A stretch of DNA of 35,166 bases from Anaerolineaceae bacterium (lineage in GTDB: Bacteria; Chloroflexota; Anaerolineae; Anaerolineales; Anaerolineaceae): the NCBI GenBank assembly GCA_017417055.1, contig JAFPZX010000193.1, positions 1 to 35,166 of the forward strand, in the 5' to 3' direction. This document shows, piece by piece, positions 1,872 through 22,988 of the stretch; position 1 is the first letter of the stretch; every line of letters starts with the position of its first letter. The position numbers and the translations under genes are program-made. Under the pieces are notes generated by a model. That model worked only from the letters and a program-made list of their open reading frames with translations. It made no database searches and was not told the DNA's origin.

Positions 1872-2029
1872 TAAATTGTTATAACCTGCAGCGGGGCTGG
1901 TGTATCTGTTTGCGCCAACCCTGCTGATTCTCTTTTCATTTCTGCATAGTGTTGAAAAACATATATCCGGCAAATTCATTTTTTCCATGTTATATTTACA
2001 TGTATAATCAAATCAAGGATCTGCAAAAT

Positions 2030-4759
2030 ATGAATGGAACTGTCTCTACAGGGAAATACGATAGGCTGCCTGAAGAATATATTCTTGACGAGCGTTATAA
2101 AATCATACGCATGATCGGGGAAGGCGGATTTGGCTGCACTTATGAAGCAGTTAACATCCACACAGGTAAACATGCTGCAATTAAGGCAAACCGGCAGGCT
2201 GATCCGCAGAATTTTCTACAGGAGGCCCGTATTCTGCGGGATTTTTCAGAAGAATCCGCTATCGTCAATGTCCTGGATTACTTTGAAGAGGACGGGACTG
2301 CATATCTCGTGATGGAATATCTGGACGGGATCCCGCTCTCCGAAGAGGTCCGGGAAAACGGTAAATGGCCGACAGAAAAAGCCGTTCGCAGTTTTATTCC
2401 TGTCATGCATGCATTAGGAAAAATGCATGCGGCAGGCGTGATCCACAGAGATGTAAGTCCCGATAATTTGATGGTCATGCCGGATGGGTCACTGATCCTG
2501 ATGGATTTCGGTGCTGCAAAAGAGATCCATGAACAAAATTTCACTCGGAATTCCATCTATAAATCAATTTACTCACCGCCTGAACAAAGGGAGTCGGGGG
2601 TAACACTGGGCAGTTATACTGATGTTTATGCCTTGTGTGCGACATTTTACTTCTGCATTACCGGACAGGCACCAGAAGACTCACTTTCAAGACTGCTTTT
2701 TGATGAACTAAAAAAACCATCCGAATACGGTACAGACATAAAACCCAGATCTGAAAAAGCAGTGATGAACGGGCTTGAACTGGATATCGCGGATAGAATA
2801 CAAAAGATGACTGAACTTCTGGATGTGTTGGAAAAAGACTATCCAGATCTGAGTGAGGAAGAAAAAAGGATCCTCAAAGAAAAGCAAAAGAATCGTAAAA
2901 AGATCGCTTTCATTTCCTGCTGTGCTCTTTTCATTATTATTCTCAGTTTGCTCTATAAATTCCGTATCAACATTTTATTCACTGCGATAGACACTCAGAC
3001 GGTAAGGCTGTTAAACACATCAATGACGGATGAGGAATACCGGAAAAATGCCGAAATTGTTAGAGAACGGGTAAAGGTTTTTTCAGAAGGCAAATATTTG
3101 TGGAAGGAGGATCAGAAAGTAATCACCTTTGAAGTGCCGTCTGAGTCATTCAACGGTAAATCACCATTTGACGTAACCAGATTTTTTCTATCACGCCCCA
3201 TGGTCATTTCATTTTATATTGGAAGCAGCCCAAAAGAAGGACACTATCTTGGCGTTTTTACGCAGGGAAAAGATATCATTTCGGCTGATTCAAATGATAA
3301 CACCCTGTATGTTATCCTCTCTACAGCTGCTGCAGCACGCTTTAATGGCGCACTGAATGTGCAAGAAGAGAATATTTCAATTGCGTTTGATTATGATTCC
3401 ACGAATTATATCTATATGACAGGCACTTCCGTCGGTGATGGTAAGAGCATTCGGATAGATTATAATTTTCAAGACAGCGATTACATAATATCGGATAACC
3501 TTATGTCTTTGCTCTGGAACACTCCACCCTCTTCGAAGCCTTTCAGTGTTCACGCAGATTGGAAAGTTCAGTGGGAAGATGTAAATAACGCACTATTCCC
3601 CGGAAAAAATCAAAGAAACCAGGATTCAATTCCTGGCGCTGCACTTTTGATGAGATACGTTCCAAAAAATGAGCCGGAAGAGTCATCTGGGTATGACCTG
3701 TTTCAGGTGGCCTTTCAAGCCGCATTGAAAAATCGTCTGGACAGTCTTGATTTTCCATATGCTTTTGGTATAGACCGATATAAAAAAAATTCATATGTAG
3801 TAAAATTTCCAGCTGAACGATATTGGCCAGAAGAGGCAGATTATCTCCCCGAACTCCAAAAACACCATCTGCATTTCGGCAGCAGTAAAACCATGGATCA
3901 AACCATATACCCAAACGAAATCAGAATTATTACTGAAAATGACGGTACATGGCAGGCGGAAGTCTCAATACAGCAATCAAATAGGACAGAAGACTTATTC
4001 CAAACGCTCATTCAACAGAATGAAAAAGACTTTTATCTCTATTTCAAATCAAGAAAGCTGTTTGTCTGTCCCTTGGAAGAAGCATATAAATCGTTTCGTG
4101 AAAACGGTAAGATTTATTTTAAAAACTGGGTTTCCGCAAATTATCCTGAAATGGATGACACAACCAATCATTTCGGCAATTTTCTGGAAACCTGCCTTGA
4201 TCAGAACTTACCAACCGGTGTTTTTTATGAAGCAGATGATGATGTCGAGCTTCATGATGAAAAAGGCAAACTGGTTTTTTCCGATTTCGACAAATTTTTT
4301 CCGGCTCCTTTGACAGAAAAGCAGCCTTTAGACGGGCTGATTGATAAATGGAACCAGGAATATGGCAGCGCACTGAAATTCACTTATATTGATAATTTGG
4401 ATTCCAACTCGCTGGATATTTCCGCCACAATAACTGATATCTGCGAACCATCACCGGTACTGCAGATAATAGAAGATTTTCTGAAAAGAAATGCCAAAGT
4501 AATTGAAAGCGGAAATTTTATGCATATTTATATATATCTCAATATTGGCAGCGATCCAGATGTTTTATCAGAATCGAGAAAATCGTTTGTACTCCTTACG
4601 TTAAGTATGGACTTTCAGACAGGGAAATTTCTGTTTCCACGTTATTTTGGATTTACCGCTCGAAATGTAAACAATTGGAAAGAAATTGAAAAAACCTACA
4701 CTTCAATCTTTGAATCATCCCCGTTTTGGAGCCAATATCTGAGACCAGATCCGGAATAA
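2030..4759 (+). CDS. Transmembrane serine/threonine protein kinase with large outer domain
   Basis: A protein of about 909 residues (counted from ATG 2030) likely to phosphorylate Ser/Thr targets in response to an outside signal. Kinase motifs are intact: glycine loop GEGGFGCTYE, AIK lysine, HRDVSPDN (catalytic Asp, about 139-146), DFG and SPPEQ in place of APE. Ser instead of Lys after HRD is common in bacterial kinases of the HRDISPDN type. A basic linker precedes one membrane segment (about 290-311). About 600 outer residues follow, including two similar blocks (about 338-397 and 557-617) faintly like the SecD head domain. Upstream in-frame starts exist at GTG 1949 and ATG 2000. I prefer 2030 because AAGGA lies 10 nt before it and TATAAT at 2003-2008 overlaps the ATG at 2000. 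It converges on the next gene with one base between stops. Confidence 0.85.
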   Translation: MNGTVSTGKYDRLPEEYILDERYKIIRMIGEGGFGCTYEAVNIHTGKHAAIKANRQADPQNFLQEARILRDFSEESAIVNVLDYFEEDGTAYLVMEYLDGIPLSEEVRENGKWPTEKAVRSFIPVMHALGKMHAAGVIHRDVSPDNLMVMPDGSLILMDFGAAKEIHEQNFTRNSIYKSIYSPPEQRESGVTLGSYTDVYALCATFYFCITGQAPEDSLSRLLFDELKKPSEYGTDIKPRSEKAVMNGLELDIADRIQKMTELLDVLEKDYPDLSEEEKRILKEKQKNRKKIAFISCCALFIIILSLLYKFRINILFTAIDTQTVRLLNTSMTDEEYRKNAEIVRERVKVFSEGKYLWKEDQKVITFEVPSESFNGKSPFDVTRFFLSRPMVISFYIGSSPKEGHYLGVFTQGKDIISADSNDNTLYVILSTAAAARFNGALNVQEENISIAFDYDSTNYIYMTGTSVGDGKSIRIDYNFQDSDYIISDNLMSLLWNTPPSSKPFSVHADWKVQWEDVNNALFPGKNQRNQDSIPGAALLMRYVPKNEPEESSGYDLFQVAFQAALKNRLDSLDFPYAFGIDRYKKNSYVVKFPAERYWPEEADYLPELQKHHLHFGSSKTMDQTIYPNEIRIITENDGTWQAEVSIQQSNRTEDLFQTLIQQNEKDFYLYFKSRKLFVCPLEEAYKSFRENGKIYFKNWVSANYPEMDDTTNHFGNFLETCLDQNLPTGVFYEADDDVELHDEKGKLVFSDFDKFFPAPLTEKQPLDGLIDKWNQEYGSALKFTYIDNLDSNSLDISATITDICEPSPVLQIIEDFLKRNAKVIESGNFMHIYIYLNIGSDPDVLSESRKSFVLLTLSMDFQTGKFLFPRYFGFTARNVNNWKEIEKTYTSIFESSPFWSQYLRPDPE

Positions 4760-13808: not shown

Positions 13809-13838
13809 TCATCAAATTCAAAGAAAGGAGGAGTGAAT

Positions 13839-15026
13839 ATGAACACTATGGCAGCTGAAATGATGGAAATTGCAGATCAAGTGAATCAAAATGATATTCA
13901 AGACGCGGGCGGCGGAAGAGACAACCGTGGGATCCTGACGCCGGTCAGAGCCGCAGATCTGCCCGATGAGCCTGCCAATGTGTTTTCCAATGCTCCTGCC
14001 GAATTTGAAGAACGATCCCGCCTGCTTTGGTACGACACGCAGAAATTATATTATCATGCCTGCACCGCCAACCGCTTTTCTGAAAATTATCTGAAATATT
14101 CAGAAGAATTAGAAAAAAGCGTAAAACAGATGGGCAGCGTCTGTCTGACAAAAGCAGCTTTGGAACAAAAAGGAATGGAATTTCCAAACCTTTCCGAGTT
14201 AAATACAGAAGAACTTGTCCGCATAAGCTCCTACCATCTGCGCAAGGCACATGCCGCTTTGGAAGGAATCTACAAGGACAACAGTCTGTTGGGACTGAGC
14301 TACCTGAAACAAGAATTCCGCTGGTCAGCCCTCATCGGTCGTCTGGAAGCAACTGAAGTCAAGATCCAAAAAATCAAAGACGGAAAACTGAATGCAGATG
14401 ACCTGTTCAAACAGGATGAAAGTTTTCGCGGCGCACAACGAACAAATGATAAAAGCGACCAGGAATCAGCACAGCGGTTTCAGGTGAATCCTTCTGCCCT
14501 GCCTATCGACGGATCCATGGCAAAAAGGATGATTTCCCTTGAAAAGACAGCACAAAAACAGGCACAAGAAGCCCGAAAAGAAAAACTACACAAGATCAGA
14601 GAACTGGAAAAACTGGAACGGAAATTGGACCGCACACCCGGCACCTTCAAACCTTCAATGATCGAACTGAAGAAAGAAGATAAACGGTGGGTAGACGAAC
14701 ATAACGCCGAATACCTGCGGAAAGAAATCGCAAAGATGGAAGCAGCAGAGCGGGAAGAACAAATACCAACGGAAATTCCGGAAACACGGGAACCTGTTCC
14801 CGGAGAGATCAGCGAAGCGGAGGCGCGGAAGATCCTGATGGATGAGGCGATGAAGCGGGGCGATCAACAGGCGATTCTGGAAATCCCGCTGGAAGATTCG
14901 CAAACCTTCTATCAGCGCTGGGTTCGATGGTGCGAATCAGTTACGAAAAGGAAGAATCCCGTGCCAGGTCCTTCAAATGAAAAAAGAAAGGCACTTAGGG
15001 AAAAGCGCAAGAAAAACAAGCATTAG
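13839..15026 (+). CDS. Unrecognised coiled-coil-rich protein at the head of the TerB/BrxD/helicase locus
   Basis: A 395-residue soluble protein that I cannot assign to a family. Its N-terminal 50 residues look disordered; residues 60-180 are helical with aromatic positions (LLWYDTQKLYYHAC, YLKQEFRWSALIGRLEA); residues 220-300 are highly charged and likely coiled coil (QEARKEKLHKIRELEKLERKL core); the C-terminus ends in a very basic tail (KRKALREKRKKNKH), perhaps for nucleic acid. ATG 13839 is chosen over GTG 13833 because the GGAGG (13827-13831) touches the GTG but is 7 nt from the ATG. It lies 313 nt before the TerB-domain gene, same strand, with a shared promoter word, so a joint role is suggested but unproven. 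Confidence 0.75.
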   Translation: MNTMAAEMMEIADQVNQNDIQDAGGGRDNRGILTPVRAADLPDEPANVFSNAPAEFEERSRLLWYDTQKLYYHACTANRFSENYLKYSEELEKSVKQMGSVCLTKAALEQKGMEFPNLSELNTEELVRISSYHLRKAHAALEGIYKDNSLLGLSYLKQEFRWSALIGRLEATEVKIQKIKDGKLNADDLFKQDESFRGAQRTNDKSDQESAQRFQVNPSALPIDGSMAKRMISLEKTAQKQAQEARKEKLHKIRELEKLERKLDRTPGTFKPSMIELKKEDKRWVDEHNAEYLRKEIAKMEAAEREEQIPTEIPETREPVPGEISEAEARKILMDEAMKRGDQQAILEIPLEDSQTFYQRWVRWCESVTKRKNPVPGPSNEKRKALREKRKKNKH

Positions 15027-15339
15027 GTATTAGGCAATAGGAAATGGATATAGGCAATAGTGAGCCGGAATCGGTTGATTTCGGCTGTTTTTGGTTTGGT
15101 TGTTATACCCTGATGTGGTATCGAACCGTTAGTTTCGTCCCCGCCGCCTTATACCGGGAGAAGCAAATCAACAGAATTATCCGTCGGCAAGATGATGGGG
15201 ACAGTCTGAAGGTCCAACCCACGATGGCTACCCCTTGTATAGGCGTTCGGGATGGTAAATGAAACTCATAATTAATTCAATTATCGTAAATTAGAAAATA
15301 AACTGTATAATTGGGTAGCTGTAATAAAAGAGGTGCGAA
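15027..15339 (+). promoter_or_regulatory. 313-nt leader of the TerB-domain gene
   Basis: No coding sequence is apparent. A 10-bp direct repeat TAGGCAATAG occurs at 15031-15040 and 15051-15060. The regulatory word TTAGAAAATAAA (15291-15302) is followed by TATAAT (15306-15311); the best -35 candidate, TTATCG, is weak and spaced 19 nt. The leader probably holds a second promoter, or a read-through control point, for the downstream trio. Confidence 0.45.
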
Positions 15340-17241
15340 TTGGATCTATCAGAACTGGCTGCATATGCCGAAGAAAAATTCAACATCAGGGAACAGTTCA
15401 AATGGACTGATTTTCCTTCTTTTTCTGTTCTCGCCGCACCTTATTCAGGAAAATGGGCCGCGCTGCTGATGCGGCAATCAGATCCCGCTACCGGAAAAAT
15501 CTCTCAGCGCTGCGACATAAAATGCGGCATAGAAAAATTAAATGAACTGAATGAACCTTATCTTTCCCAGCCATTCCGCATGAAAGGCCCCAATTGGCTG
15601 GGCGTCAGTTTTGACGACCGAACGAAACCTGAAGTCGTTTTCCGCTTATTCGACCAGGCTGTATATGCCGGAGAACAAAGCGGATACACCCTTATCATTG
15701 ATTATTCGGAAAGTAATACAGGGGAACAATATAAAGAGACTGCTTTATCCGCGCCATCCCGATCATTTTACTCTCCTGAAACAAATCCCGATATTCCGGA
15801 AAAGATAAGGGAAATGATGCGCCTTTTTAAATATGGAGATAACTCTTTCAACCAGAAATGTAGAAACTTTTATACCCAGGGAAAGTTTATGGAAGATTAT
15901 GAAGAAGACTTTCCCTGGAAAGGTGACTTCAGGCATTATTTCCCGACATACCATGATCTGAACGCGGAACAATTGCGGGGCTACTTCTCCTGGCGGAAAA
16001 ATGCAAGAAAAGGCGTTTATCTGCACATTCCCGTTTCGCTTGCTTACATCTATATATATGAATTACTCAATGGCATTGGCGCCTCATCCGCGGAAGATAC
16101 GCTGCAAAAACTTGAGGATTTTGAAAACGGATTTCTGACATCCGGCATCGGTGATCCGGGAATCCAGGAAAATCTGCACCGCTGGATGTACGAATTCTCA
16201 ATTGTGAATGGAATCCCTGCTGAAACAACAAGGAAATACATTGATCAGGATATTCTTCGCAAAGACAAAGCGATTCTGAACCTCAAGGAACCGCAAAACC
16301 ATACAGACGACGAAATATTTGATTCTATTTGTGCCTTTTCCGGAGATAAATTAAAACTTTCTCCTGTAATAACAAAATTTACGCAAAAAGGGATCCATTT
16401 GTTCGCGGAGGTCTGGCGTTACGCGTCGCAATTTTATTCGTATAAAGGGCAAACCTTATTTACCACTTGTTTTGGCAATCAAAATTCTTTCCATTGGTAT
16501 CCGCTTTCCAATGCTGTTTATTATTGGAAAGATCCACTGCCGGAACATGCCGAATATGAGCTGGATGAATGCCGCAAATTCATCTGCCATTACGGAGTCT
16601 GGCTTGAAAAAAAGTTTGAAAATCTTTATTTTCAAAAGAACCGGTTTCAGGCCTTGTTTCATGAAGCGGACAGGCTGCTGCGTTCCTATTTAAAGACAGG
16701 ACATCCGCTGAAGGAAAAGCCTGAAGAAAGCTGGGCAGCCCCTTACGTGCAGGCAGTCATTGAAATGGACCGCAAAACCGAACTCGAAGCGGCAAAACCA
16801 AAAATCACAATAGATTTCGGAGACCTTGACCGCATCCGTCAGGATGCCCTGCTGACTAGAGACAGTCTCCTGACAGAAGAAGAGATGAACGAATCCGGAA
16901 CAGATGAAATATACAATACAGATATTCAGGATTTTTCGCCGGAAAATGCTGGGCAGGAGAACAATTTACCTGAAGAAGAAACGTCTCAGCAAACCGCCCC
17001 GGGATTGCCGCTTGAACCGATCCATATCAGGATCCTGCAGGCACTTTTGCGGGGAGACTCTGTTGAAATGCTCCTGAAAGAAAATCATTTGATCCCATCG
17101 GTTGTGACCGACACAATCAACGAAATTTTCTTCGATGAGATCGGAGACAGCGTTTTGGAATGTGATGACAGTAAAATCAGTATCGTGGAAGACTATAAAG
17201 AGGATATAATACAATTGCTTGGAGGAAATATCAATGAATGA
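15340..17241 (+). CDS. TerB-N/TerB-C domain protein with YjbR-like N-terminus
   Basis: A 633-residue protein in three parts. Residues 1-120 resemble the MmcQ/YjbR DNA-binding-like fold (GKWAALLM, DIKCG, NWLGVSFDD, then FRLFDQAV). Residues about 154-300 match TerB-N (NSFNQKCRNFYTQGKFMEDY, FPTYHDLNAEQLRGYFSWR, YIYELLNGIG). Residues about 490-633 match TerB-C (helix-rich; TINEIFFDEIGDSVLE, VEDYKEDI at the end). TerB-N/C proteins have been linked to stress and DNA-processing gene clusters. Start is TTG, supported by GAGGTG about 5 nt before and DLSELAAYAEE being a good domain start. It overlaps the ATPase gene by 8 nt. Likely a scaffold or sensor for the ATPase and helicase (inference). Confidence 0.85.
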   Translation: MDLSELAAYAEEKFNIREQFKWTDFPSFSVLAAPYSGKWAALLMRQSDPATGKISQRCDIKCGIEKLNELNEPYLSQPFRMKGPNWLGVSFDDRTKPEVVFRLFDQAVYAGEQSGYTLIIDYSESNTGEQYKETALSAPSRSFYSPETNPDIPEKIREMMRLFKYGDNSFNQKCRNFYTQGKFMEDYEEDFPWKGDFRHYFPTYHDLNAEQLRGYFSWRKNARKGVYLHIPVSLAYIYIYELLNGIGASSAEDTLQKLEDFENGFLTSGIGDPGIQENLHRWMYEFSIVNGIPAETTRKYIDQDILRKDKAILNLKEPQNHTDDEIFDSICAFSGDKLKLSPVITKFTQKGIHLFAEVWRYASQFYSYKGQTLFTTCFGNQNSFHWYPLSNAVYYWKDPLPEHAEYELDECRKFICHYGVWLEKKFENLYFQKNRFQALFHEADRLLRSYLKTGHPLKEKPEESWAAPYVQAVIEMDRKTELEAAKPKITIDFGDLDRIRQDALLTRDSLLTEEEMNESGTDEIYNTDIQDFSPENAGQENNLPEEETSQQTAPGLPLEPIHIRILQALLRGDSVEMLLKENHLIPSVVTDTINEIFFDEIGDSVLECDDSKISIVEDYKEDIIQLLGGNINE

Positions 17242-18565
17242 AGAAAACCGAAAAATACCCAGACGAATTGCGCAAACTGTCATTAATTCTCTGAAAGGCG
17301 GCGTCGTTCCCCGCATCGGGCTGCCTTATATCACCGTCGGACGCAAAAACGAAATTGAGGCACTGCTTCATGATGTGGAAATCATCTCCGAAGGCGGCGC
17401 GTCTTTCCGTTTTATTGTCGGTAGATATGGTTCCGGGAAAAGTTTTCTTATTCAAACGATCCGCAATTATGTAATGGAAAAAGGCTTTGTCGTTGCAGAC
17501 GCTGACCTTTCACCGGAAAGAAGGCTGCAGGGAACAAAAGGGCAGGGATTGGCAACCTACCGTGAATTAATTGGAAATCTCTCCACAAAAACCAAACCGG
17601 AAGGCGGCGCTTTGACGCTGGTTCTCGACCGCTGGATCAACAATATCCAATCGGAAGCCGCACAGGAAAACAGCCTGGCGCCCGGTGATCCGGCACTCAC
17701 CAAAGCGGTTGATAAAAAAATATGGGAAGTGACATCCGCTGTCAGTGAACTGGTGCACGGATTTGAGTTTGCGAGACTTCTCTCTGCCTATTACCACGCC
17801 TATATTGAAGGGAATGATGATCTGAAAATGAAAGTCCTGCGCTGGTTCCGCGGAGAATACGGAACGAAACGGGAAGCGAAGGAAGATTTAGGAGTAAATA
17901 TCATCATCAGTGATGATGATTGGTACGACTACATCAAGATTTTCGCCGTTTTCTTCCGTCTGGCCGGCTACACCGGGATGATGATCATGATCGATGAACT
18001 CGTGAATATCTATAAAATTCCCAACACCATTACACGTCAGTATAACTACGAAAAAATGCTGACCATGTATAACGATACACTCCAGGGAAAGGCTAAATAT
18101 CTCGGCATCATTATGGGAGCCACACCGCAGGCAATCGAAGACAAAAGACGCGGTGTTTACAGTTATGAAGCGCTGCGTTCCCGACTGGCAGAGGGAAAAT
18201 TTTCACGGCCGGGTGCCCGGGATTTATTGGCGCCTGTGATCCGCCTGGAACCGCTGACAGCTGAAGAAATGCTGATTCTATGCGAAAAATTAGCGGCGAT
18301 GCATGCCGGTCTGTACGGTTATGAACGGAATATCAGTACGGATGAGCTGGCGGATTTCATCAAGATCGAATATGGTCGTATTGGAGCAGATCAGAATATT
18401 ACGCCGCGGGAAGTTATTCGTGACTTCATCGAACTGCTGGACCTCATCTATCAAAATCCGTCTATGCACATCTCGGAAATTCTGCAATCTGACGAATTTT
18501 CCTACGCGAAATCAGAGGCTGTGTCAGATAATACTGAAAAGGACTTTGCGGAATTTACCATATGA
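17234..18565 (+). CDS. BrxD-like P-loop ATPase
   Basis: A 443-residue ATPase of the BREX ATP-binding (DUF2791/BrxD) family, which acts with the BrxHI helicase in type 2 BREX phage resistance. Walker A is GRYGSGKSF (about 63-71), Walker B MMIMIDEL (about 249-256), sensor-type strand GIIMGATPQ (about 293), followed by YEALRSRL with a likely arginine finger. ATG 17234 is chosen because GGAGGA lies 7-8 nt upstream and overlaps the end of the TerB gene. The stop overlaps the helicase start (ATGA). The pair with the helicase occurs without the other BREX genes, so I call it BrxD-like. Confidence 0.9.
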   Translation: MNEENRKIPRRIAQTVINSLKGGVVPRIGLPYITVGRKNEIEALLHDVEIISEGGASFRFIVGRYGSGKSFLIQTIRNYVMEKGFVVADADLSPERRLQGTKGQGLATYRELIGNLSTKTKPEGGALTLVLDRWINNIQSEAAQENSLAPGDPALTKAVDKKIWEVTSAVSELVHGFEFARLLSAYYHAYIEGNDDLKMKVLRWFRGEYGTKREAKEDLGVNIIISDDDWYDYIKIFAVFFRLAGYTGMMIMIDELVNIYKIPNTITRQYNYEKMLTMYNDTLQGKAKYLGIIMGATPQAIEDKRRGVYSYEALRSRLAEGKFSRPGARDLLAPVIRLEPLTAEEMLILCEKLAAMHAGLYGYERNISTDELADFIKIEYGRIGADQNITPREVIRDFIELLDLIYQNPSMHISEILQSDEFSYAKSEAVSDNTEKDFAEFTI

Positions 18566-20790
18566 ACGTTTTTGACCGCTACGCTCCATTTATTCAGGAT
18601 TGGATCTACCGCTCCGGTTGGCAGACGCTGCGCTCTGTGCAGAATGCCGCGGGAGATGCGATCTTTAATACAGATGAGAATGTTCTCCTGACAGCTTCTA
18701 CTGCTTCAGGAAAAACAGAAGCAGCTTTTTTCCCGATTCTCACGCTTTTGGATGAAGAACCGCCACACAGTGTCGGTGTCCTATATATTGCGCCGCTCAA
18801 AGCTCTCATCAACGACCAATTCGGCAGACTGAATGAGCTTTGCGAAGAGGCAGGGATTTCGGTTTTCCGCTGGCATGGAGATGTTCCGCAGACACAAAAA
18901 CGCAAGCTGCTGCGCAAACCGACAGGAATTCTGCAGATCACACCGGAATCTCTCGAATCTCTGATGATCAACAAGCATATGGAAATTCCATCGCTTTTTG
19001 GGGATCTGCGTTTTATCGTGATCGATGAGATCCACTCCCTTTTACGCGGAGACCGCGGAATGCAGACATTCTGCCTGGTCGAAAGACTCTGCAAGCTTGC
19101 TGGCTGCAGCCCGAGACGGATCGGACTTTCGGCTACGATTGGGGATCCGCAGGCTGCCGGTGTTTTTTTAGCTGCCGGAAGCGGCAGAAAAACCGTCATC
19201 CCTAAAATCGAAGGCGGAAAGGAAGTCTGGCGGCTTTCGATGGAGCATTTCTTCAATACCGCTCCGCAGGCGGATGAAGGAAGGCCCGAGGAAATCACTG
19301 TACCGATCCTTGAAGAACCGACAGACACCGCGCCAAAAGCGGCTGATCCGGGTATCGGCTATATTTTTGAACATACCCGCGGAAAGAAGTGCCTCGTATT
19401 CACCAATTCCCGTGAGGAATGTGAATCGGTCTGTCAGAGTCTCAGGCAATATTGCGAAGTCAACCATGAACCGGAACGGTTCCTGATCCATCATGGAAAT
19501 CTTTCCGCTTCCTACAGGGAAAGCGCCGAAGAGGAGATGAAAGACGATGATTCGTTGATGTCCGTCTGCGCTACAGCCACATTAGAGCTTGGCATCGATA
19601 TCGGCAGGCTGGAACGTGCTTTTCAAATCGATGCGCCTTTTACCGTTTCCGGATTTCTGCAGCGGATGGGCAGAACCGGAAGACGGGGAGCCCCATCCGA
19701 AATGTGGTTCGTGATGAGGGAAGAACACCCGGAAGCCCGGGCGATGCTGCCGGATATGATTCCATGGTACCTGATCCAGGGTATCGCATTGGTCCAGCTG
19801 TATATCGAGGAACGTTTTGTTGAACCGCCCCGGACAGAACGCCTGCCGTACAGCCTGCTTTATCATCAAACCATGAGCACACTTGCCTCCAGCGGGGAAA
19901 TGACAGCGGGCGAATTAGCCTCACGGGTTTTGACGCTTTCCTGTTTTCATCGAGTTACGCAGGATGATTATCGGTTATTATTACAACATTTACTCCAAAT
20001 CGACCATATCATCAAAACCGAAAACAATGGTCTGATCCTTGGCCTTGCCGGAGAACGAGTCGTCAACAGTTACAAGTTTTACGCGGTCTTCCAGGAAAAC
20101 ATTGAATATTCTGTGCGAACCGGTTCGGAAGAGCTCGGCACCATCGTCAAGCCGCCGCCGGTCGGTGATAAGATCGCCATCGCCGGACGGGTCTGGGTCG
20201 TGGAAGAAGTCGACCATAAAAAACATGTAGTCTACTGTACATTAGTGAAAGGGAACATTCCTGCTTATTTTGGCGATGTGGCAGGCGATATCCACACCCG
20301 AATTCTGGAAAAGATGCACAGCATTTTGAACGATGGGAAAACCTATCCGTACCTGATGCGGCATGCCGTCTGCCGTTTGCAGGATGCACGGGAAAGCTTC
20401 CGAAAGTCGGGAATGGCAGAGCATCCGCTGATCCATCTCGGTGGAAAGATGTGGGCGTTGTTCCCCTGGCTGGGCAGTTATGCTTTTCTGGCTCTGGAAC
20501 GCTTTCTGAAGATCCGCTGTGGAGAACGGCTGGGGCTGAAGGGATTGAATCCTTCCCGGCCTTATTACCTACAGTTCACCATGCAGGTAACGGAGGAGGA
20601 ATTCTTTCAAATCACTGCCGAAGAAGCCGCAAAAGACTTTGATCCACTCGAACTGGTTTATCCAAAAGAAGTACCGGTCTTTGAAAAATACGATGAATAC
20701 GTTCCGGAAGAGCTGATTCGGAAAGGGTTTGCGCTCGGTGTGCTGAATGTAGAAGAAATGAAGAAACGAGTCCTGAGCTGGTCTTCGTGA
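18562..20790 (+). CDS. BrxHI/Lhr-like superfamily 2 helicase
   Basis: A 742-residue DEAD/DEAH-type helicase. Motif I TASGKTEA (about 46-53), Ia APLKALINDQ, motif II DEIH (about 154-157), motif III SATIGD (about 191), motif V TATLELGIDIG and motif VI QRMGRTGRRG (about 366-375) are intact, so it should be an active ATP-driven translocase on DNA. The region after residue 400 is Lhr-like, with YKFYAVF and FEKYDEYVPEELI at the C-terminus, and lacks a Cys cluster. ATG overlaps the ATPase stop by one-base-shifted ATGA, so the two are made together. BrxHI is the helicase of type 2 BREX. Here the gene ends just before a family R repeat. Confidence 0.92.
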   Translation: MNVFDRYAPFIQDWIYRSGWQTLRSVQNAAGDAIFNTDENVLLTASTASGKTEAAFFPILTLLDEEPPHSVGVLYIAPLKALINDQFGRLNELCEEAGISVFRWHGDVPQTQKRKLLRKPTGILQITPESLESLMINKHMEIPSLFGDLRFIVIDEIHSLLRGDRGMQTFCLVERLCKLAGCSPRRIGLSATIGDPQAAGVFLAAGSGRKTVIPKIEGGKEVWRLSMEHFFNTAPQADEGRPEEITVPILEEPTDTAPKAADPGIGYIFEHTRGKKCLVFTNSREECESVCQSLRQYCEVNHEPERFLIHHGNLSASYRESAEEEMKDDDSLMSVCATATLELGIDIGRLERAFQIDAPFTVSGFLQRMGRTGRRGAPSEMWFVMREEHPEARAMLPDMIPWYLIQGIALVQLYIEERFVEPPRTERLPYSLLYHQTMSTLASSGEMTAGELASRVLTLSCFHRVTQDDYRLLLQHLLQIDHIIKTENNGLILGLAGERVVNSYKFYAVFQENIEYSVRTGSEELGTIVKPPPVGDKIAIAGRVWVVEEVDHKKHVVYCTLVKGNIPAYFGDVAGDIHTRILEKMHSILNDGKTYPYLMRHAVCRLQDARESFRKSGMAEHPLIHLGGKMWALFPWLGSYAFLALERFLKIRCGERLGLKGLNPSRPYYLQFTMQVTEEEFFQITAEEAAKDFDPLELVYPKEVPVFEKYDEYVPEELIRKGFALGVLNVEEMKKRVLSWSS

Positions 20791-20887
20791 TTCTTAGAAG
20801 GTACTGATTCATTGTGTTCCGGGATGGTCTTGCGTTGTACGCAAAACCATCCCCGTCCTCTCAATTCATTGAGTTTCTGAGCTAAAG
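20791..20887. repeat. Family R stem-loop repeat, copy 5, also a probable bidirectional terminator
   Basis: The left end TTCTTAGAAGGTACTGATTC begins directly after the helicase stop codon. The right end TCAATTCATTGAGTTTCTGAG completes an imperfect outer stem. Inside is a strong hairpin GGGATGGTCTTGCG (20821-20834) / CGCAAAACCATCCC (20840-20853) with loop TTGTA. It lies between convergent genes (helicase and PBP2), so it may end transcription from both sides. Confidence 0.6.
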
Positions 20888-20909
20888 AAGACAGGCCGAA
20901 TTAACGCTT

Positions 20910-22988
20910 TTATAAATTCGTTCCGGCGACTTCGGCGTCGTACTCTTTGAGCAGAAAATAATTGTCGATCACACGCCGGACCGGATAAGCAGCCAGGTAC
21001 GCACCTTCACGTCCGTTATAGACAAATACGACGACGACAATTTCCGGTGCGCTGTACGGTGCATATCCCGCGGTCCATGCATGAGCAGGCCAGGAACCAA
21101 ACTGACATAGACCCTTTGCGTTCGCAATATCATCACAATATTCAGCTGTACCCGTTTTTGCTGAAGCCTCATGCGTTTCTCCCGCAAAAGCTTCTTCGGC
21201 AGTTCCGCCGGGCTGAGGAACACGCCGCAGACCCTTCCGTGTCTCCTCAATGACCCAGGGCTCAACGGTTTTGTACTCCCCTGTCCCGACTCCGTTTTCA
21301 TCATAAATCTGGATCCGCGGATCTTTAGTGATATCCCAATGCATCTGCGGCGTGAACGGCAAAACCGTGTTGCCGCGCTCGTCAAGAATTTCGCGGATCA
21401 GTGTCGGTTTAACATGAACACCATTAGCCGCCACCGTCGCGAATGCCCCCAGCACCTGAATCGGCGTCGCGGTAACATATCCCTGTCCCATGGAAGCCAG
21501 ATAGGTGTCACCTGTTGCCCAGGCTTCACCCTGATTCACACGCTTCCAGGTCGTGGTCGGAATCAGACCGTCTTCTTCACCGTCCAGCTCGATTCCGGAA
21601 TATTGATCATAACCGAGCGCACGTGCATATTCTCCGAGCCGGTCAATTCCCAAACCCTGAGGAACCTCGGTTCCATAACCGCCGCCGACTTTGTTGAAAT
21701 AAATATTACAGGACCAGGCCAGCGCATGCTGATAGTCAACCTGCCCATGTCCGGTACGCAAGTGACAAACATATTCCTGCGTAGAACCCGGATCGTTCGG
21801 CGAATAACGCTGTTCCATAAAAATGGATCCCGGGTCAAACACATACTGATCCGGCGCGACAACGTGCTCGTTCATGGCGCCGATCCCGGTCACGATTTTA
21901 AATACGGAGCCCGGCGGCTGGGCAACCTGAGTCGCGTGATTCATCAATGGTCTGGACTGGTCAACTGAAAGCTGTTGGTAATAATAAGCAGGAATATAAC
22001 GCGTCATCCGGTTATTTTCAAATGTGGGTTCACTGACCATCGCCAAAACTTCACCGGTCTGCGGATTCATGGCAATACCGGCAGCATCTTCCGTGATGAT
22101 ACCGGTCAGGGAAACGCGGTTATAAAAATTCATCGTATCGATCATCGCTGCACGCATAACGTTCTGAAGACGTACGTCAATGGTAAGCATAATGTTATAT
22201 CCCGGGACAGGATCACGGGGAGGTTCCAGGTCACGGGTCTGCAGTCCGCCGACATCAATTTCTACCACCCGGCGTCCGTTCTTCCCGGAAAGAATATCCT
22301 GAAGTGAAGATTCCACACCCGCATATCCATATTGGTCGGATTCCACCAAAAAGCCCTTTTCCCGCATTTCGTCCTGCATCATTTCCGGGATCGGGCCGAG
22401 AAAACCGATAATTTCTGCGGTAGAATAACCTGTCGGATATTCACGAATCGAATTGACCCGAACCCCGACACCCGGCATTTCCGCTGCTTTTTCCTGTACG
22501 ACCATGGCAAGCTCTTTGCTGACATCACAGACGATCCCGGTCGCATCATAAGGGGAAAGAGAACTGGCAATATAGACGACCTGTGAAATGCCGAAGTCTG
22601 TTCCACATTCACTGTACATACGGACCGTTTCATCGTTGATTTCACCATTATTCACCGGAACATCAATCAGTTGGGAAAGTTTTCGATAAACTTCCTGCGT
22701 ATCTCCGTCATCGTCGGGCAGGTCAGCGGGCGTAATGGTTATATCATAAGTCGCGGTATTTCTTGCAAGAACTACTCCGTTGCGGTCAAAAATAATTCCG
22801 CGTTTGGTCTGTTCACGGACAATGGTAATACGGTTTTCATCTGCCAGGTCCAGATAATAATCACCATCAAGAATCTGGATCGTAAACAGACGGTATACAT
22901 AAAACAGCATAACCCCGAAAAAAACAATCAGGAACCCGATCAAACGCGGACTGTGTCCTGCCAATTTATTCTCACTTGGACCGTTCAT
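20910..22988 (-). CDS. mrdA: Penicillin-binding protein 2, peptidoglycan transpeptidase
   Basis: A 692-residue class B PBP that cross-links peptidoglycan during cell elongation, anchored by one N-terminal membrane helix (about residues 15-35). The dimerisation domain follows (RGIIFDRNGVVLARN). The transpeptidase motifs are complete: S361-VFK (PPGSVFKI), S426-CN and K611-TG (AKTGTAEY). It overlaps mreD by 4 nt (ATGA) and has GAGGAA before its ATG. It is last in the mre operon. No rodA follows in this window. Confidence 0.95.
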   Translation of the reverse strand: MNGPSENKLAGHSPRLIGFLIVFFGVMLFYVYRLFTIQILDGDYYLDLADENRITIVREQTKRGIIFDRNGVVLARNTATYDITITPADLPDDDGDTQEVYRKLSQLIDVPVNNGEINDETVRMYSECGTDFGISQVVYIASSLSPYDATGIVCDVSKELAMVVQEKAAEMPGVGVRVNSIREYPTGYSTAEIIGFLGPIPEMMQDEMREKGFLVESDQYGYAGVESSLQDILSGKNGRRVVEIDVGGLQTRDLEPPRDPVPGYNIMLTIDVRLQNVMRAAMIDTMNFYNRVSLTGIITEDAAGIAMNPQTGEVLAMVSEPTFENNRMTRYIPAYYYQQLSVDQSRPLMNHATQVAQPPGSVFKIVTGIGAMNEHVVAPDQYVFDPGSIFMEQRYSPNDPGSTQEYVCHLRTGHGQVDYQHALAWSCNIYFNKVGGGYGTEVPQGLGIDRLGEYARALGYDQYSGIELDGEEDGLIPTTTWKRVNQGEAWATGDTYLASMGQGYVTATPIQVLGAFATVAANGVHVKPTLIREILDERGNTVLPFTPQMHWDITKDPRIQIYDENGVGTGEYKTVEPWVIEETRKGLRRVPQPGGTAEEAFAGETHEASAKTGTAEYCDDIANAKGLCQFGSWPAHAWTAGYAPYSAPEIVVVVFVYNGREGAYLAAYPVRRVIDNYFLLKEYDAEVAGTNL

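Follow-up and report, generated by a model that had tools for sequence, protein, structure and literature searches.

Identity of the operon

Do three overlapping genes in the genome of an Anaerolineaceae bacterium represent a new, minimal relative of the bacteriophage exclusion (BREX) system, or a defence system of a kind already known? The genes occupy positions 15,340 to 20,790 of a 35,166-nucleotide stretch of contig JAFPZX010000193.1, hereafter the window. A preliminary description of this DNA viewed them as a stand-alone anti-phage or DNA-damage operon in which a TerB-family protein accompanies an ATPase and a helicase, with the latter two regarded as BREX parts and the layout as little described. 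As judged from profile matches, we found the trio to be almost certainly the Shango anti-phage operon, sngA-sngB-sngC. The suspicion of a stand-alone defence operon agrees with this identity, and anti-phage activity has been shown by others for relatives; the layout, in contrast, is not little described, as it has been published as Shango.

The Pfam searches revealed TerB_N (E-value of 1.2e-22) and TerB_C (3.8e-21) in the first protein, both over the cut-off, BrxC_BrxD (PF10923; 4.7e-170) in the second, and DEAD (6.2e-29) and Helicase_C (1.2e-18) in the third. At the level of sequence, these matches are far beyond chance, and the domain composition first proposed, a TerB_N/TerB_C protein with a BrxC/D-family ATPase and a superfamily 2 (SF2) helicase, was borne out. 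The PADLOC SngA profile matched the first protein with 247.8 bits (9.7e-74). The second protein scored 635.3 bits as SngB (1.4e-191) compared with 157 bits as BrxD (2.9e-46), and the third scored 935.3 bits as SngC (8e-282) compared with 416 bits as BrxHI (7.4e-125). Against the NCBI BrxD equivalog, SngB reached 157.9 bits, which is under the cut-off of 350. The assignment of the ATPase and helicase to BREX thus gave way to SngB and SngC. The PADLOC and Pfam figures for SngB come from a longer, TTG-started version (17219-18565). Additionally, the genes follow the Shango order A-B-C in one operon, the SngB Walker A and B motifs and the SngC helicase motifs are intact in sequence, and neither Pfam nor PADLOC revealed a nuclease domain in any of the proteins.

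Shango of Pseudomonas aeruginosa PA14 is described as a TerB-like protein, an ATPase and a DEAD/DEAH helicase (PMC10250203), and according to the methods of that paper its three proteins are in the same order as those of the window. In PAO1, it cut plating 10-100-fold for many of the phages tested, not for all (PMC10250203). The same source refers to E. coli Shango as reported shortly earlier, with an approximately 10-fold effect on two phages. The three proteins of Shango from E. coli H5 (L126) also have the order seen in the window. The features of the operon are as follows.

15330-15335: GAGGTG, ahead of the sngA TTG start
15340..17241, + strand: sngA, 633 residues, TTG start (open reading frame (ORF) call, Pfam, PADLOC); YjbR-like domain, TerB_N, middle region and TerB_C
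15340..15675, + strand: SngA residues 1-112, YjbR/MmcQ "double-wing" fold domain
15796..16338, + strand: SngA residues 153-333, TerB_N (PF13208, 81.1 bits)
16768..17208, + strand: SngA segment with a PF15615 match (76.3 bits)
17234..18565, + strand: sngB, BrxC/D-family AAA ATPase, 443 residues from ATG 17234 (SngB 1.4e-191; PF10923 4.7e-170)
17420..17443, + strand: SngB Walker A, GRYGSGKS, identical in 66 of 80 relatives
17981..17998, + strand: SngB Walker B, MIMIDE, identical in 74 of 80 relatives
18562..20790, + strand: sngC, SF2 (Lhr/BrxHI-like) helicase, 742 residues (SngC 8e-282); best PDB match by E-value, 5v9x
18694..18717, + strand: SngC helicase motif I, ASTASGKT; ASGKTEA identical in all 77 loci with SngC there
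19024..19035, + strand: SngC DEIH box, identical in 68 of 77
19660..19689, + strand: SngC motif VI, QRMGRTGRRG, identical in 65 of 75

Inspection of ORFs and start sites confirmed the overlaps that had been described. sngA and sngB share 8 nt (17234-17241, with the sngA stop codon at 17239-17241), and sngB and sngC share 4 nt, the ATGA at 18562-18565, in which sngC starts at ATG 18562. The start of sngB is most likely ATG 17234, which we preferred over the tool-called TTG 17219 because GGAGG (17221-17225) sits 8 nt before it. A gap of 313 nt separates the end of the upstream ORF (13833-15026) from sngA. A consensus scan of 15027-20950 found seven promoter-like sites, no excess over the 7.6 expected from shuffles, and 12 terminator-like sites compared with 6.5 expected; one of the latter, a stem at 15063-15086, is situated in the gap before sngA.

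Relationship to BREX

The adjacent PF10923 ATPase and SF2 helicase are homologous to the BrxD and BrxHI dyad of BREX type 2, and this homology speaks for a degraded or split type 2 system that needs PglX, PglZ or BrxC encoded elsewhere. We regard such a system as extremely improbable, given the far better scores of SngB and SngC as families of their own, the SngB score under the BrxD cut-off and the content of the genome. The assembly that includes the window (4.4 Mb, 200 contigs, 85% complete, 5.5% contaminated) contained no PglZ match and no PglX over the cut-off, with three weak matches of which the best reached 31 of 500 bits; its sole PF10923 match was SngB, which leaves no BrxC or second BrxC/D protein. 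We treat these negatives as provisional, since the assembly is not complete; they agree with the earlier statement that the window has no PglX, PglZ, BrxC or methylase. PglW was not among the listed PADLOC matches of the scanned window proteins, the genome itself not having been searched for it. On the genome's lack of PglZ, of PglX over the cut-off and of another BrxC/D match, a BREX remnant was rejected. The survey for the trio across genomes that had been suggested earlier revealed recurrence in 75 of 80 related loci, which also argues against a split BREX, although these loci were not searched one by one for BREX genes.

Conservation of the three proteins

The related loci were obtained by an SngB scan of genome contigs, in which 80 loci were kept of 157 relatives. 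Outside the 75 loci in which all three proteins were matched, sngA was unmatched in L036, L075 and L076, and sngC in L029, L055 and L075; the contig ends directly after sngB in L055 and approximately 1 kb after it in L029. The genes were contiguous in 65 of the 75 loci, a count that includes L024 and L049, which have interrupted SngA frames, as well as loci truncated at the edge of a contig; the other 10 had at least one gene inserted between A and B or between B and C. The two interrupted frames belong to Treponema parvum and a Lachnospiraceae metagenome-assembled genome, and intact relatives exist. Between sngB and sngC of L006 (3783-6813) are what we take to be two genes of methyltransferase type and one of restriction type, an insert that resembles a restriction-modification set placed within the Shango operon. 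The insert of L034 presumably encodes a large methylase-type protein, and those of L054 presumably encode methylase-type proteins. The L014 insert resembles histidinol dehydrogenase, and therefore not every insert is a defence gene.

The median identity to the window across the 75 loci was 46% for SngA and 83% for both SngB and SngC, and SngA was the least identical of the three proteins in every locus. Nonsynonymous divergence (dN) was compared in seven of the ten possible pairs among five genomes of the genus, where it was 0.15-0.43 for SngA, 0.03-0.13 for SngB and 0.045-0.10 for SngC; the SngA values were 3.3-6.5 times higher. Between E. coli and Pantoea, dN was 0.24 for SngA, 0.07 for SngB and 0.13 for SngC, with a smaller contrast to SngC.

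Architecture of SngA

We show here that the N-terminus of SngA has a YjbR fold. The preliminary description was correct with regard to TerB_N and TerB_C and incomplete in that it missed this domain. The solved chains of PSPTO_3016, YjbR and DR2400 (PF04237) are small (117-138 residues), in contrast to the window domain, which is fused to TerB_N and TerB_C; PMC7641849 mentions a fusion of YjbR to TerB, citing a 2012 paper. The 769-residue E. coli SngA combines a hydrophobic N-terminal segment with a TerB domain (29.1 bits), whereas the window SngA has the YjbR domain and lacks both a hydrophobic segment and a detectable TerB. The kind of system is already known, and the YjbR-headed SngA is a modest architectural variant of it.

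Near-locus SngA proteins were classed for YjbR by tblastn (E 1e-3), which covered 63 complete proteins, including the YjbR-positive L049, interrupted at 486 residues; 14 further loci, which lay at a contig edge, had a broken frame or were of unusual length, were left unclassified, and three more had no SngA. A strongly hydrophobic stretch, defined as 19 residues with a mean hydropathy of at least 1.8, was found in none of the 63 and in four of eight distant SngA proteins (E. coli, Pantoea, Sulfitobacter and a haloarchaeon), where it was of membrane type. The haloarchaeal plasmid SngA (L096:3491-5980) has a TM2 membrane domain at its start. Another front end was seen in the 1052-residue SngA of Paenibacillus peoriae (L099:2505-5663), with approximately 600 extra N-terminal residues that have no clear Pfam match.

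TerB (PF05099) was over the cut-off in four of the eight distant proteins, below it in one, and undetected in three (two Paenibacillus and Hymenobacter). In the window SngA, Pfam did not detect TerB at E-values up to 1, and the domain was absent from the precomputed Pfam domains of the best 120 of 1471 SngA homologs. An hhalign comparison of the SngA clade with five TerB-bearing SngA proteins gave one match, from window residue 414 to approximately 625, which mainly covers TerB_C and whose start faces the final stretch of the TerB domain in E. coli SngA. The TerB fold is all-helical, and the structure model of the window SngA has strands at residues 403-425. The window protein may keep a TerB remnant, and we do not treat this core domain as a strict hallmark of Shango. 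No TerB structure was among the rows listed for the model (VIA, Foldseek), a result without weight as evidence of absence. By these searches, the window SngA is a member of a branch with neither a membrane segment nor a detectable TerB core.

Distribution and genomic neighbourhood

The trio was present in five of 14 genomes of the genus, which are the five closest by penicillin-binding protein 2 (PBP2; 93-97% identical to that of the window). Of the nine without it, eight had a PBP2 of 71-77% identity and one had no close match. In a wider sample, the SngB model at 1e-3 matched 11 of 61 genomes, own included, eight of them over most of the model length. In a phylum sample of 400 genomes, the SngA model at 1e-20 matched nine, again counting the own genome. 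With the Pantoea SngB as query, an SngB-like gene was found in 479 of 5426 E. coli genomes. SngB matches occurred in 691 of 72,556 plasmid records, of which at least the weakest is annotated as BREX, and in none of 50,697 phage records at 1e-5.

The left-hand housekeeping genes before sngA are shared by the genus genomes G006, G012 and G013 and unaligned in G005. To the right of sngC, where the window has a penicillin-binding-protein/mreC/mreB set on the minus strand facing the operon, neither G005 nor G013 aligns to the window, and in G006 and G012 the contig stops approximately 0.3 kb past sngC. Because of this flank pattern, we do not call the locus a defence island in the window lineage. 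A compositional island was ruled out, as the GC content of the trio (43-53%) is close to that of its flanks.

Enrichment in defence islands, raised in the preliminary description, was examined with 100 of 410 near-locus neighbour ORFs (at least 200 residues; those sampled, at most 900) by PADLOC at 1e-20. These matched 62 PADLOC families, compared with one for 55 control ORFs from PBP2 loci. The difference deserves little weight, because families are not members and none of the 25 families listed matched more than three of the 100 ORFs, the sample includes genes nested in the L006 operon, the mad3 matches are probably ABC transporters, and the controls come from one genus.

The ORF upstream of sngA (13833-15026) encodes 397 residues with a Lys-rich tail and had no Pfam match over the cut-off and no PADLOC match. 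Its family is high-copy: the own genome has 43 matches, the four other genomes of the genus that carry Shango have 15-44, and the remaining nine have none. A 1.8-kb stretch holding this ORF is unaligned in G006, G012 and G013, and in G013 the aligned sides are only 139 bases apart. The family is perhaps a lineage-specific mobile or repeated one. Further upstream, a 936-residue protein (1949-4759) has a Ser/Thr kinase domain at its N-terminus, the only kind of domain that Pfam revealed; its best PADLOC matches, PD-T4-6 and mad6, concern the kinase part only.

Possible mode of action

As a whole, the explanation that we favour is a Shango operon in which SngA directs the loading of SngC by SngB so that phage DNA is blocked, and we hold it to be about evenly poised between right and wrong. 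SngA would bind DNA or a phage nucleoprotein via its N-terminal double-wing domain, perhaps also with its C-terminal winged-helix-like part, and would recruit SngB, a BrxD-like ATPase of putative ORC/Cdc6 type. SngB would then load SngC at the SngA site, by analogy with BrxD, which according to PMC12839542 is an ORC-Cdc6 AAA ATPase that may load BrxHI. SngC would unwind or strip the invading DNA and thereby stop its replication. As the searches revealed no nuclease domain in the trio, this block may be direct or dependent on host nucleases. DNA binding by SngA is inferred in this scheme, as are the loading step, the target and the outcome, and docking of the ATPase and helicase to DNA by SngA would fit the YjbR domain. 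SngA would be the phage-facing, exchangeable part that chooses the place or moment of loading. More tentatively, Shango may possibly consist of a conserved ATPase-helicase engine whose front end can be exchanged; in this branch of gut anaerobes, a cytosolic double-wing DNA-binding domain would take the place of the E. coli-type membrane segment and TerB, and changes in SngA would set the trigger and loading site.

Several observations weigh against the favoured explanation. The YjbR part was present in 47 of the 63 complete SngA proteins and absent in 16, and is therefore not essential to Shango; near the SngA of those 16 relatives, a free-standing YjbR gene was represented by one weak match only (E 0.019, L012). 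YjbR is also among the better conserved SngA segments (58-70% in four genus comparisons), so it is itself no hypervariable recognition surface. Synonymous divergence is near saturation, and thus faster protein change of SngA is shown, not positive selection; its speed could reflect relaxed constraint. In the window lineage, moreover, the operon lies among housekeeping genes, and no other convincing defence gene was found among the scanned window proteins.

A rapidly changing SngA would also suit a sensor, and the membrane-type segment of four distant SngA proteins would suit sensing away from DNA. Both points speak for abortive infection, in which SngA senses, for example, host replication takeover or a phage protein, and SngB and SngC damage or stall host and phage DNA until growth stops. 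The Pfam and PADLOC searches of the trio found no toxin or nuclease domain, and we consider this course rather unlikely. The presence of the trio in five of five genomes of one genus sub-clade and none of nine others, together with the shared left-hand neighbours in G006, G012 and G013, would be expected if it were mainly a resident DNA-repair or replication-restart module in this Chloroflexota lineage; SngC also distantly matches a ligase-associated DNA-damage helicase (207.7 bits, cut-off of 850). Such a role appears improbable in view of the patchy occurrence outside the sub-clade (nine of 400 phylum genomes), the 60% identity of SngA to that of G013 in a pair whose PBP2 is 97% identical, the restriction-type genes seemingly nested in the operon of some relatives, and the anti-phage activity of relatives shown by others (PMC10250203).

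Among known systems, Hachiman (HamAB) is likewise built around an SF2 helicase (PMC12278908); it differs in having a nuclease effector, a domain not found in the window trio. The same paper groups SngC with BrxHI, DruE and DpdJ in what may be a separate clade.

For the original observation, the main value is negative, as there is no new minimal BREX-like system; defence was rightly sensed and Shango went unrecognised, and the YjbR-headed SngA without a TerB core is the part worth following. Shango is common (an SngB-like gene in 479 of 5426 E. coli genomes), yet a 2026 review gives its mechanism as unknown (PMC12926258), and we recognised no paper devoted to that mechanism among the open-licence papers listed for Shango. 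An SngA clade that lacks a membrane segment and carries a fold whose relatives include reported DNA binders offers a concrete handle on the mechanism, namely on whether Shango acts on DNA through SngA and whether SngA is the part that sets phage specificity.

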